Below are positions 38,030 through 41,904 of a stretch of 64,000 nt of DNA, piece after piece. The notes below the pieces were generated by a model. The model saw nothing but the letters and a program-made list of their open reading frames with translations, had not been told where the DNA came from and did no database searches. The stretch covers positions 186,001-250,000 of the forward strand of contig NZ_JAUASX010000004.1 in assembly GCF_030345715.1 (NCBI RefSeq), given 5' to 3'. The position numbers were made by a program, and so were the translations under genes. Within the stretch, counting starts at the first letter, position 1. Each line of letters opens with the position of its first letter. The DNA is from Solimonas sp. SE-A11 (GTDB lineage Bacteria > Pseudomonadota > Gammaproteobacteria > Nevskiales > Nevskiaceae).

Positions 38030-38314
38030 GTGAGAATCCGGACCCGCCAGTCCCTGCTGCTTGTCCTGGCCCTGCTGATGGGCCAGTGGCTGGCGTTCGC
38101 CCATGACAGCCTGCATCCGGCCATCAGTGCCGACGTGCACTGCCAGCTCTGCGCCCATGTGCAAAGCCTGGCCTCCGGCCTGCCGGCTGCCAGCGCGCCG
38201 GTCAGCTTCGCGGGCTTCGCGCACGAAGCCCCCCCGGCGGCCGTCACCCTCGTCACCTACGCCTCACCCCGCCGCGCCTGCCCCATCCGCGGCCCTCCCG
38301 AAACCCAGGCCTGA
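38030..38314 (+). CDS. Small secreted CxxC protein preceding the TonB receptor (DUF2946-like)
   Basis: The start is probably the GTG at 38030, which gives 94 residues with a signal-like segment (SLLLVLALLMGQWLAFAHDS). The mature part contains HCQLCAHVQ, a CxxC motif with neighbouring histidines, and little other recognisable structure. Small proteins of this kind, similar to DUF2946 members, often precede metal-related TonB-dependent receptors. The receptor gene begins 67 bases later on the same strand. Metal binding at the CxxC/His segment is an inference. Confidence 0.6.
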   Translation: MRIRTRQSLLLVLALLMGQWLAFAHDSLHPAISADVHCQLCAHVQSLASGLPAASAPVSFAGFAHEAPPAAVTLVTYASPRRACPIRGPPETQA

Positions 38315-38381
38315 AGCTGCTGCACCGCTTTGCGCAGGCCGCCGGCCTGCGCTGCCTGATCCATTCCTCTCGGGATTCACC

Positions 38382-40448
38382 ATGAACGCTTCCGCTTTCC
38401 GCGGCGCGCAGGCCCTGCCTGCCGCGCGCCGTTTTCCTTCGCTGTTCCCGCTGCTCGCCCTGCCCGCTGCGGCCATGAGCTTTCCCTTCGCCGCGTCCGC
38501 CGACGACGCAGCGCCCGCGGTCGAGCTGGCCCCTGTCGTCGTACAGGCCAGCGCCCTGGGCCGCACTGCCGACGAGCTGGTGCAGCCGGTCGCCGTGCTC
38601 GCCGACGAAGAGCTGCAGCGCAAGCGCCGCGGTACCCTCGGTGAAACGCTGGAGAACGAGCCGGGCATCGCCACCACCGACTTCGGCCGCGGTGCCGGCC
38701 GCCCGGTGATCCGCGGCCAGGCCGGCCCGCGCATCGAGGTGCTGCAGAACGGCCTGTCGACCATGGACGTCTCCGAGCTGAGCCCGGACCACGCCGTGAC
38801 CATCGATCCGGCGCATGCCGAGCAGGTGGAGATCCTCAAGGGGCCCGCCACCCTGCTCTATGGCAACGGCGCCTCCGGCGGCGTGGTCAACGTACGCGAC
38901 GCGCGCCTGCCGGAAGAGGTGCGCGAGGGCCTGCATGGCGGCTTCGACACCTCCTGGGGCAACAACGGCGATGCCGGCGCCTTCAGCGGCGAGGCCGGCT
39001 ACGGCAGCGGCCCGCACCAGCTGCGCGCCGACTTCGGCTGGCGCAAGGCCGGCGACTACGACCTCGCGGGGCCTGCCAACGTCGACGGCAGCGGCCCGCG
39101 CAGGCGCCTGCCGAACAGCGACGTCGAGGCGCGCTCCGGCGGCGCCTCCTACTCCTGGATCGAGGACAGCCGCACGCTGGGCTTGGCGGTCAGCCGCTTC
39201 GAGTCGCAGTACGGCCTGCCGGTGGAGGAAGCCGCCTACATCGACATGCACCAGACCCGCGTCGATGCCCAGGGCATCTTCCGCAACCCGATGGCGGGCC
39301 TGGAATCGGTGAAGCTGCGCCTCGGCAGCTCCGAGTACGAACACACCGAATTCGAGGAGCCAGGCGTGCCCGGCACGCGCTTCGACAACCGCCAATACCA
39401 GGGTCGCGTGGAAGCGGTACACGCGCCGCTGGCTGGCTTCCGCGGCGTGGTCGGCCTGCAGCTCAACTGGCGCGATTTCCAGGCCATCGGCGACGAGGCC
39501 TACGTGCCGCCGGTGCTGAGCCGCCAAGCCGGCCTGTTCGTCGTGGAAGAGCGCCCGTGGAGTCTCGGCAAGATCGAGATCGGCGCCCGGGTGGACCGTA
39601 ACACCAACGATCCCGAGAACCTGCCGGCGCGCGACTTCACGCCGATGAGCTTCTCGCTGGGCTCGGTGTTCAACCTCGGCGCGTATTCGCACCTGAAGCT
39701 CTACGCCACCAGTTCAGAGCGCTCGCCGGCACCCGAGGAACTCTACGCCGAAGGCCCGCATGCCGCCACCGCCACCTACGAGCGCGGCGACAACGGCATC
39801 GGCAAGGAGCGCGCGCAGAACCTGGAACTGGGCTACGACTATCACCGCGAGCGTTGGAGCCTGCAGGCCAGCGTCTACTACAACCGTGTCGCCAACTACA
39901 TCTATCTCGCCGAGAGCGACCAGGATGCCGATGGGGTGGCCGATCGCGTGGATGAGGACGGCGTGCTCGATCCGGCGGGTGACTTCCTGCTGGTGGACTA
40001 CCGCCAGGCCGACGCGAAGTTCTGGGGCTACGAAGCCTCCGCCGGCTATGCCCTGCTGAACCAGGGGCCGCTGCACCTGGACTTGCGCCTGTTCACCGAT
40101 CAGGTGCGCGGCGAGCTCGAAGACGGCGGCAACCTGCCGCGCATCACGCCGCAGCGCTGGGGCCTGGGCCTGGACGGCCGCTGGCAGCAGTTCGCCGGCA
40201 GCCTCGACTACATCCGCGTCCAGAGCCAGGACCGCATCGCATCGCTGGAGACACGGACGTCGGGCTACGACCTGCTGAATGCCAGCCTGTCCTGGCGCGT
40301 GCAGGGCGACGAGCGGCAGGGCACCTCCATCTACCTGCGCGGCACCAACCTGCTCGACGAGGAGATCCGCCGCGCCACCTCTTTCATCAAGGACGCGGTG
40401 CCGGCACCGGGGCGCGGGGTGTATGTCGGCTTGAGGATGTCGATGTAA
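38382..40448 (+). CDS. TonB-dependent receptor, ZnuD-like
   Basis: The 688-residue precursor starts at the ATG at 38382, with a signal peptide ending near SFPFAASA, then a plug domain (VVVQASALGRTADELVQPVAVL, RGQAGPRIEVLQNGLSTMDVSELSPDHAVTIDP, EILKGPATLLYGNGASGGVVNV) and a 22-strand-type barrel ending in VGLRMSM. The plug segment SPDHAVTIDP and the C-terminal FIKDAVPAPGRG resemble the zinc receptor ZnuD. An Asp-rich loop (DQDADGVADRVDEDG) may bind a cation; no His-rich loop typical of neisserial ZnuD is seen. It should import a metal or metal chelate across the outer membrane with TonB-ExbBD. A Zur box was looked for in the short upstream gap but not recognised. Confidence 0.87.
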   Translation: MNASAFRGAQALPAARRFPSLFPLLALPAAAMSFPFAASADDAAPAVELAPVVVQASALGRTADELVQPVAVLADEELQRKRRGTLGETLENEPGIATTDFGRGAGRPVIRGQAGPRIEVLQNGLSTMDVSELSPDHAVTIDPAHAEQVEILKGPATLLYGNGASGGVVNVRDARLPEEVREGLHGGFDTSWGNNGDAGAFSGEAGYGSGPHQLRADFGWRKAGDYDLAGPANVDGSGPRRRLPNSDVEARSGGASYSWIEDSRTLGLAVSRFESQYGLPVEEAAYIDMHQTRVDAQGIFRNPMAGLESVKLRLGSSEYEHTEFEEPGVPGTRFDNRQYQGRVEAVHAPLAGFRGVVGLQLNWRDFQAIGDEAYVPPVLSRQAGLFVVEERPWSLGKIEIGARVDRNTNDPENLPARDFTPMSFSLGSVFNLGAYSHLKLYATSSERSPAPEELYAEGPHAATATYERGDNGIGKERAQNLELGYDYHRERWSLQASVYYNRVANYIYLAESDQDADGVADRVDEDGVLDPAGDFLLVDYRQADAKFWGYEASAGYALLNQGPLHLDLRLFTDQVRGELEDGGNLPRITPQRWGLGLDGRWQQFAGSLDYIRVQSQDRIASLETRTSGYDLLNASLSWRVQGDERQGTSIYLRGTNLLDEEIRRATSFIKDAVPAPGRGVYVGLRMSM

Positions 40449-40477
40449 GGCCGGAGCGGCCCATTCTCCGGATGGCG

Positions 40478-40540
40478 GTCGCCGGCAAGCTGGCTCCTGC
40501 AGGAACAGGCTAGTACTGTAGGAGCCGGCTTGCCGGCGAC
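40478..40540. repeat. REP pair upstream of the RAYT gene
   Basis: Left copy 40478-40503 (GTCGCCGGCAAGCTGGCTCC...) and right copy 40516-40540 (...GGAGCCGGCTTGCCGGCGAC) are inverted relative to each other, separated by 12 bases. Each contains the palindrome GCCGGC-AAGC-type core. The same element recurs downstream at 41028-41090. Confidence 0.88.
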
Positions 40541-40559
40541 ACCGCACTGGGACGAGAAC

Positions 40560-41243
40560 ATGCTCGCGAACTCTGGACATGTCGCATTGCGCAGGGGACG
40601 CGTCTCGACTCCGGGGCAGATCTATCACGTCACCACAGTGACGTCAGGCCGCGAACCCTTCTTTGCCGACTGGCAAGTCGGGCGCATGCTCCCGCCGCTA
40701 CTCAACGACGAGAATTTGCTCGGAGGAGCCCGGACGCTGGCCTGGGTCCTGATGCCGGATCATCTTCATTGGCTGTTGGAACTCGGCGAAAAGCGCAGCC
40801 TCTCCGAGATCGTCCGCCGCCTGAAGTCGTCGAGTGCCGTACGCGTGAACAAGGCCATGGGCAAAACGGGCCCTCTATGGGAGTCCGCCTTCCATGACCA
40901 TGCGCTCCGACATCACGAAGATGTGCGTAGCGTGGCGCGCTACATCATCGCGAATCCGCTGAGGTCAGGCCTGGTGAAGTCGATCGGCGACTATCCGCTG
41001 TGGGATGCCATATGGTTGAGGGAACAGGTCGCCACAAGCTGGCTCCTACAGAAGCAGATCTGTTTTTGTAGGAGTCAGCTTGCTGGCGACATCCATGCCT
41101 ACAAAAAGGAAAAGGCCCCTTTTCGGAGCCTTCCCTTGAGAATCCACCAAAGGCTTATTTCGCCTTCGCCTGGTTCGCCACCGCCTCGGCAGCCTTCTTC
41201 GCCGCCTCGGGATCGCCGAGGTAGCGGAACGACTTCACTGTGA
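40560..41243 (+). CDS. REP-associated tyrosine transposase (RAYT)
   Basis: The 227-residue frame has the Y1 transposase core: [17 protein letters not shown] near the N-terminus, the HUH-type metal motif in [28 protein letters not shown], and the catalytic tyrosine in [14 protein letters not shown]. RAYTs are single-copy relatives of IS200/IS605 transposases that act on REP palindromes, cutting single-stranded DNA. The ATG at 40560 is preferred to a TTG inside the upstream REP. Normal members end soon after [10 protein letters not shown]; here the frame continues for about 65 residues through the downstream REP pair, the gpmA terminator and 89 bases antisense to gpmA, so the natural stop seems lost. 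Confidence 0.9.
41028..41090. repeat. REP pair within the 3' end of the RAYT frame
   Basis: Left arm 41028-41050 (GTCGCCACAAGCTGGCTCC...) and right arm 41067-41090 (...GGAGTCAGCTTGCTGGCGAC) are diverged inverted copies of the REP at 40478-40540. Between them is the palindrome CAGATCTG. Confidence 0.85.
41102..41132 (-). terminator. Rho-independent terminator of gpmA
   Basis: On the minus strand AAGGCTCC-GAAAA-GGGGCCTT (one G-T pair) is followed by TTCCTTTTT, about 22 bases after the gpmA stop. Confidence 0.8.
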
Positions 41244-41904
41244 GGTCATCGTTCAGCTCGAACAGCAGCGGGATGCCGGTAGGGATGTTCAGCTCCAGGA
41301 TTTCCTTGGGCGACACGTTGTTAAGGTACTTGTACAGCGCACGCAGCGAGTTGCCGTGAGCCGTGACCAGCACGGTCTGGCCGGCCTTGAGCTGCGGCGC
41401 GATGGCGTCGTGCCAGTAGGGCAGCACGCGGTCCAGCGTGGTGGCCAGCGACTCGGTGCCGGGCAGTGCCTGGGCGTCGAGCTTGGTGTAGCGCGGATCG
41501 TTGGCCGGGTGGCCGGGGTCCTTGATGTCCATCGCCGGAGGCGGGATGTCGTAGGAACGGCGCCAGACCTTCACCTGCTCCTCACCGTGCTTGGCGGTGG
41601 TCTCGGCCTTATCCAGCCCCTGCAGGGCGCCGTAGTGGCGCTCGTTGAGGCGCCAGGTCTTGTTCACCGGGATCCACATCTGGTCCATCACGTCCAGCGC
41701 GGTGTACATGGTGCGGATGGCGCGCTTGAGCACCGAGGTGTGGGCGCAGTCGAAGCGCAGGCCCTCGGCCTTCATCAGCTCGCCGGCGGCCTTGGCCTCG
41801 CGCGCGCCCTGCTCGGTGATGTCCACGTCGACCCAGCCGGTGAAGCGGTTGTCGAGGTTCCACTGGCTCTGGCCGTGGCGGAGAAGGACGAGTTTCTTGG
41901 TCAT
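41155..41904 (-). CDS. gpmA: 2,3-bisphosphoglycerate-dependent phosphoglycerate mutase
   Basis: The 249-residue enzyme (E. coli GpmA 250) has the phosphohistidine motif [12 protein letters not shown] at residues 5-16, [12 protein letters not shown], and the second active-site histidine in [11 protein letters not shown]. It interconverts 3- and 2-phosphoglycerate in glycolysis and gluconeogenesis. The C-terminus is an Ala/Lys-rich tail. The ATG overlaps the stop codon of the upstream acetoacetyl-CoA synthetase gene (ATGA). The end of the gene is overlapped in antisense by the extended RAYT frame. Confidence 0.96.

Follow-up and report, generated by a model that had tools for sequence, protein, structure and literature searches.

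In the window analysed here (the whole stretch of 64,000 nucleotides), a RAYT gene has its protein end encoded by its own REP sequences, and its frame probably runs past the TAG stop supplied by the repeat in the nearest relative because one base is absent from the first downstream REP arm. This read-through amounts to a small accident within an element of a known kind. It is minor in itself, yet gene and repeat are tightly joined: the end of the gene is coded by its own repeat, and therefore a mutation of the REP is also a mutation of the protein. The main interest lies in the cassette at gpmA, which is diverged and differently oriented among the Solimonas genomes compared: the host genome (G000), S. 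fluminis HR-BB (G001), a third Solimonas genome (G002) and the nearest relative, the MAG Solimonas BWSM_106 (G003). Orientation, REP class and RAYT sequence vary there while gpmA stays (both neighbours in one pair of genomes), which makes REP-class switching testable. The features are collected in Table 1, where the names gpmA and TonB-type receptor were given by recognition and are our presumption.

Table 1. Features of the RAYT cassette and its surroundings, in window positions except for the first row
Feature	Position	Strand	Remarks
Window contig	C34:186001-250000		Part of the 4.94 Mb host genome (G000), listed 100% complete
TonB-type receptor ORF, upstream	38103..40448	+	Common to the window and S. 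fluminis (G001)
Outer upstream REP (iREP)	40479..40501	-	Pattern match with 2 mismatches; inverted repeat arm
Inner upstream REP	40517..40539	+	GTAG head, exact match
RAYT open frame	40560..41243	+	227 aa; ATG start; from the ORF list, NF047646 and Y1_Tnp profiles
RAYT conserved core	Residues 1-153, to 41018	+	Followed by a tail of 74 aa
Inner downstream REP (iREP)	41028..41049	-	One base missing between 41034 and 41035
Outer downstream REP	41067..41089	+	TAG of the GTAG head is the stop in BWSM_106, in another frame in the window
Terminator-like hairpin of gpmA	41109..41135	-	Terminator scan; the RAYT frame runs across it
gpmA	41155..41904	-	Adjoins the RAYT cassette in 4/4 Solimonas genomes examined

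The RAYT gene and the REP pairs around it

The open frame matches the NCBIfam profile for REP-associated Y1 transposases (NF047646) with 139.1 bits (cut-off 80) and Pfam Y1_Tnp with 41.6 bits (cut-off 23), and its best PDB match, by sequence as well as by fold, is 4er8, the E. coli TnpAREP bound to REP. The HUH histidines H68 and H70 are invariant in an alignment of 49 sequences, and so is Y128, which we take from family knowledge to be the catalytic tyrosine. The 153-residue core contains no internal stop or frameshift, none of its HUH or tyrosine residues is lost, and AlphaFold models it confidently (pLDDT block means of 95-98 over residues 21-150). The initial annotation gave a range from 40478, but the gene itself most likely starts at 40560; an upstream TTG start inside the REP (40530) was not adopted, family conservation beginning near residue 10 in the alignment, counted from the ATG at 40560. 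No sigma-70-like promoter was found in 40400-41250. The RAYT is single-copy in the host genome, with one match at E <= 1e-20.

RAYTs are described as domesticated, vertically inherited genes in the accessible part of PMC8049555, and the window gene is an ordinary domesticated RAYT. Most relatives are without the group 2 C-terminal extension, which would fit membership in group 3 of the Bertels grouping, as far as the available account of that grouping extends. The core has been under constraint, since its dN/dS is 0.12 between the host and BWSM_106, a ratio over the whole branch that cannot show present activity. By analogy, the core would act on REP exposed as a single strand, and the window protein has most likely kept its ability to bind and nick single-stranded REP because the HUH/Y1 core is untouched. 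According to the accessible portion of PMC8266576, single-stranded REP is cleaved by the E. coli TnpAREP and by both group 3 enzymes that were tested, and the inverse REP strand is unused by the E. coli and S. maltophilia enzymes.

The gene is bracketed by inverted pairs of one palindrome, as had been proposed initially: both pairs belong to the same palindrome class and the four REP copies give the order iREP-REP-RAYT-iREP-REP. The arms of the upstream pair (40478-40502 and 40516-40540) are 92% complementary, with a DNA fold z of -8.7, and the downstream pair reaches -7.0. We refer to the REP of the window RAYT, GTAGGAGCC(A/G)GCTTGC(C/T)GGCGA, as class A. Searches with three REP patterns counted 51, 58 and 49 copies across the host genome of 4.94 Mb, and their reversed-pattern controls 0, 1 and 0; this abundance is not due to chance. 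With up to one mismatch, class A has 49 copies in the host, 79 in BWSM_106, 21 in S. fluminis and 10 in G002, and the reversed pattern has none. The 58 sites of the looser search comprise 25 pairs (50 sites) and 8 single copies. The order is (REP,iREP), with heads outward, in 20 of the 25 pairs and (iREP,REP), with heads inward, in the other 5. These 5 include the upstream RAYT pair; the downstream pair has the same minority order and lies outside the 25 scored owing to its missing base.

The initial annotation also regarded the palindrome as the cognate REP of the transposase, which agrees with its roughly 50 copies in the host genome, mostly in inverted pairs; the REP copies do not fit a different RAYT better. 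One other Y1 gene was found, at C39:83669 (locus L002, G000:C39:82169-85510, gene near 1450-1977), bracketed by two copies of the GTAGGGCGGGAAAGCGAAGCGCATCCCGCC palindrome, which at up to 3 mismatches has 10 copies in the host genome and 16 in BWSM_106. As an owner of the window REP, this second gene was ruled out by its different palindrome. We regard the window RAYT and class A as belonging together, judging from these sequences, because class A has about 50 host copies and the other Y1 gene has another palindrome. The cassette resembles the RAYT/TnpAREP genes with flanking REPs (REPtron; 4er8) in its Y1 HUH domain, its single gene and its inverted GTAG-headed palindromes abundant genome-wide, but differs from them in the REP-encoded and frameshifted C-terminus and in the two REP pairs around the gene.

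The protein end and the missing base

After the conserved end DAIWL (41018), the RAYT frame has no stop. It crosses the downstream REP pair, the gpmA terminator and then 89 nt of antisense gpmA, ending at 41243; this course had been read correctly in the initial annotation, including the tail that it quoted. In BWSM_106, the RAYT lies at the same gpmA site, is 74% identical and continues as DAIWL-DEQVASKLAPTRADLLL to a stop at the TAG that belongs to the GTAG head of the second REP, its 17-residue tail being encoded mostly by REP sequence. The RAYT of S. fluminis has EEDRG after the conserved end and a stop inside the first REP, and that of G002 stops directly after DAIWL, before the REP. A REP-derived C-terminus, as first suggested, holds for the window, but the window is not distinguished by having lost its stop at the normal end: that stop is absent in BWSM_106 too, and therefore the indel is what sets the window apart.

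The alignment with BWSM_106 shows a single-base gap in the first downstream REP arm of the window, and the distance from the GTC at 41028 to the TAG is 41 nt in the window and 42 nt in BWSM_106. The gapped form occurs once in the host genome, where other REP copies are without the gap, and BWSM_106 holds one REP elsewhere with a different base missing. We infer a deletion in the window's own line, from a gap that rests on one assembly. The RAYT ends so near its downstream REP pair that the protein end can come from the repeat; the BWSM_106 frame crosses the first REP and stops at the GTAG of the next, and in the window, with one base missing from the first arm, the frame slips past this TAG and happens to stay open across the pair, the gpmA terminator and the 89 nt antisense to gpmA. 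We hold this anatomy and origin of the read-through, which come from comparing sequences, with good confidence, and present activity of the gene with less; the rival explanations are not all exclusive. One of them supposes an error of assembly or sequencing within a strong hairpin, the true gene stopping at the REP's TAG. The gap does sit in a very stable inverted repeat, its form is unique in the host genome and an arm of usual length would bring the frame to the TAG, as in BWSM_106; however, it lies outside any homopolymer, the genome has a listed completeness of 100% and REP arms do lose bases, since a differently gapped REP exists in BWSM_106. We consider such an error improbable.

Stops were scored in relatives at 87 loci (the best 80 of 578 confirmed relatives plus 7 from 58 family genomes), of which two duplicates were left out and 4 of the remaining 85 were not parsed; near-identical Pseudomonas loci were kept among the resulting 81. 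Among these best-listed relatives, the stop is TAG in 35/81 RAYT loci, 29 of them within GTAG, and in 21/81 the 20-mer from the GTAG has a further copy at -900 to +400, compared with 0/231 for control 20-mers inside coding regions. REP-made stops are common by this count, at about a quarter of the best-listed relatives examined. A first automatic classification of 80 distinct loci (34 stops before the REP, 27 without REP, 16 at the GTAG head, 2 inside the iREP and 1 past the REP, with 5 loci not parsed) was replaced because it misplaced the window's conserved end and overlooked imperfect stems. In the accessible portion of PMC3733652, GTAG REP termini often provide the TAG that stops a flanking ORF, and some tyrosine transposase genes overlap with flanking repeats at their 3' end, while the available passages of PMC2817692 place REPs in many cases immediately downstream of, or very near, the rayt stop. 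The REP-supplied stop in itself is already in print for REP-flanked ORFs in what is accessible of PMC3733652; the RAYT of BWSM_106, stopping on the REP's GTAG, is like the cases given there, whereas in the window allele the frame has moved beyond that stop.

In most of the best-listed relatives parsed, a single residue follows the last W; a minority carry tails of 2-27 residues. The initial annotation had asked whether close homologues all share the long tail without REP sequence. The long tail is not shared, the next longest among the best-listed relatives parsed having 27 and 25 residues, and the closest homologue does have a tail, which is REP-encoded. In Pseudomonas sp. Fl4BN1 (L077), the RAYT frame crosses a REP and has the 27-residue tail; in its close relative L109, the stop comes 4 residues after the last W.

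AlphaFold models the window tail with pLDDT block means of 41-71 from residue 151 on, under 50 for residues 187-202, and draws a low-confidence helix at residues 155-177 (pLDDT about 58-63). The tails of the window and BWSM_106 differ in the alignment after the frame shift. A conserved and confidently structured tail, which would be a mark of selection, was found neither among the best-listed relatives parsed nor in the model. By analogy with what is known of such enzymes, the tail would most likely be fortuitous, a passenger, and we infer its neutrality. It might nevertheless not be neutral, since the C-terminal tail affects the activity of E. coli TnpAREP in the accessible part of PMC8266576. 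The available text of that paper states that this tail matters in the E. coli enzyme and that its GTAG-contacting part is missing in group 3.

A recent pseudogene, losing its RAYT activity as the frameshifted tail makes the protein unstable, is unlikely but deserves some weight. Frameshift and nonsense mutations of RAYTs are reported as signs of recent pseudogenisation in the available portion of PMC3686654, and the low confidence of the modelled tail points the same way, but the core is intact as described above, HUH and tyrosine residues included, the change falls after the conserved end, and some of the best-listed relatives also carry tails of 2-27 residues. Selection for a REP-derived tail that alters RAYT regulation or target choice seems very improbable indeed. 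For E. coli TnpAREP, the accessible part of PMC8266576 reports two tail residues that touch GTAG and an activity that rises without the last 13 residues; the RAYTs of BWSM_106 and S. fluminis likewise have their ends within the repeat, and that of L077 crosses a REP. On the other hand, the window and BWSM_106 tails are unlike each other after the shift, comparable length is seen in no best-listed relative parsed, model confidence is low and a large part of the tail is read from the strand opposite to the terminator and gpmA.

Cassette divergence at the gpmA site of Solimonas

The RAYT lies beside the 3' end of gpmA in all four Solimonas genomes, and gpmA was found near the RAYT in none of 3 other family genomes having a RAYT at E <= 1e-30 (flanks of about 1.5 kb). 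RAYT and gpmA are convergent in the window and BWSM_106, and co-directional in S. fluminis and G002. The four-REP order is also present in BWSM_106 and G002; the S. fluminis cassette has three matching REP copies and, as its fourth, a diverged GTGGGAGC-headed palindrome. The window and S. fluminis share both neighbours, the TonB-type ORF (about 88% identical) and gpmA, and the intervening cassette has the opposite orientation and a different REP class. On the side away from gpmA, BWSM_106 has a 439-aa ORF with a TonB-type ORF (53% identical) beyond it, and G002 has a gene that we recognise as resembling znuB; the neighbour proteins of these two genomes were not found in the window.

Divergence was compared between 864 kb of the host and about 805 kb of BWSM_106, part of each genome. 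Nucleotide identity per 100 nt is 96-100% in gpmA, 76-84% in between and 70-75% over most of the RAYT, and the step falls at the gpmA stop. The 163 reciprocal-best pairs have a median pS of 0.20 (5-95%, 0.09-0.41). The RAYT pair, at 0.615, is the second highest of all and the highest of the 159 syntenic pairs, followed by 0.516; against S. fluminis, its pS of 0.63 is the highest of 28 pairs (median of 0.30). The highest of the 163 values, 0.72, belongs to the second Y1 gene, whose best counterpart in the BWSM_106 stretches fetched is 55% identical; this pair was set aside as non-syntenic among those stretches. The RAYT has a GC3 of 0.65-0.75, and the neighbour genes have 0.87-0.95. Since pS falls with GC3 (correlation of -0.40 for host and BWSM_106, -0.64 for host and S. 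fluminis), composition may explain part of the high RAYT value. Low codon bias was not accepted as its whole cause: the five other host-BWSM_106 pairs with GC3 <0.78, the two Y1 pairs left out, have pS of only 0.07-0.35.

In a tree of 49 RAYTs, with bootstrap not fully settled, the host and BWSM_106 (100/98) and S. fluminis and G002 (99/94) form firm pairs. The first pair groups with two other family members (93/65), apart from the second, although a single Solimonas RAYT clade is not rejected (p-AU of 0.311). The host and BWSM_106 are also the closest pair by gpmA. The RAYT cassette has either been exchanged from diverged relatives or is evolving very fast, and vertical descent is compatible with these results because the Solimonas clade is not rejected and the same two genomes are closest by gpmA. 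We suggest tentatively, giving it rather less than an even chance, that the end of gpmA is a docking site where entire RAYT-REP cassettes undergo exchange and inversion between Solimonas lineages. REP classes would then change by cassette replacement, as opposed to slow mutation of the repeats around a vertical RAYT, and the flanking REP pairs, being palindromes and mutual repeats, would serve as recombination or RAYT-processing sites.

The paper on orthogroups and orthoswitches is presumably that of Nunvar 2013. Within the literature searched, which included few subscription papers, the term orthoswitch was found in PMC3686654 only; in the accessible part of that paper, it denotes a change of REP class at a syntenic RAYT, on whose mechanism the authors only speculate. 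The Solimonas site is similar in that related genomes have RAYTs at one chromosomal site but differ in the class of the REPs beside them. It differs from what the available text of PMC3686654 describes, where flanking REPs are inferred to mutate in place, since the Solimonas cassettes also show strong divergence in the coding region and lie in different orientations. Among the papers listed, again with few subscription papers, none dealt with Solimonas RAYTs or with the exchange of RAYT cassettes.

Three REP classes occur at the gpmA site: A in the window and BWSM_106, B in G002 and C in S. fluminis. Class B has 14 exact copies in G002 (4 of them at its RAYT), 1 in the host and 0 in both S. 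fluminis and BWSM_106. Exact copies of class C number 3 in the host, 6 in S. fluminis, 20 in G002 and 14 in BWSM_106, and with up to one mismatch there are 49 in G002, 22 in BWSM_106 and 13 in S. fluminis. REP class and RAYT do not match in every genome, given that class C is not most abundant in S. fluminis; the same kind of mismatch between genomes is described in the accessible part of PMC3686654. Class C is abundant in G002 though the RAYT at its gpmA carries class B, and such an excess would be expected if an earlier cassette there was replaced.
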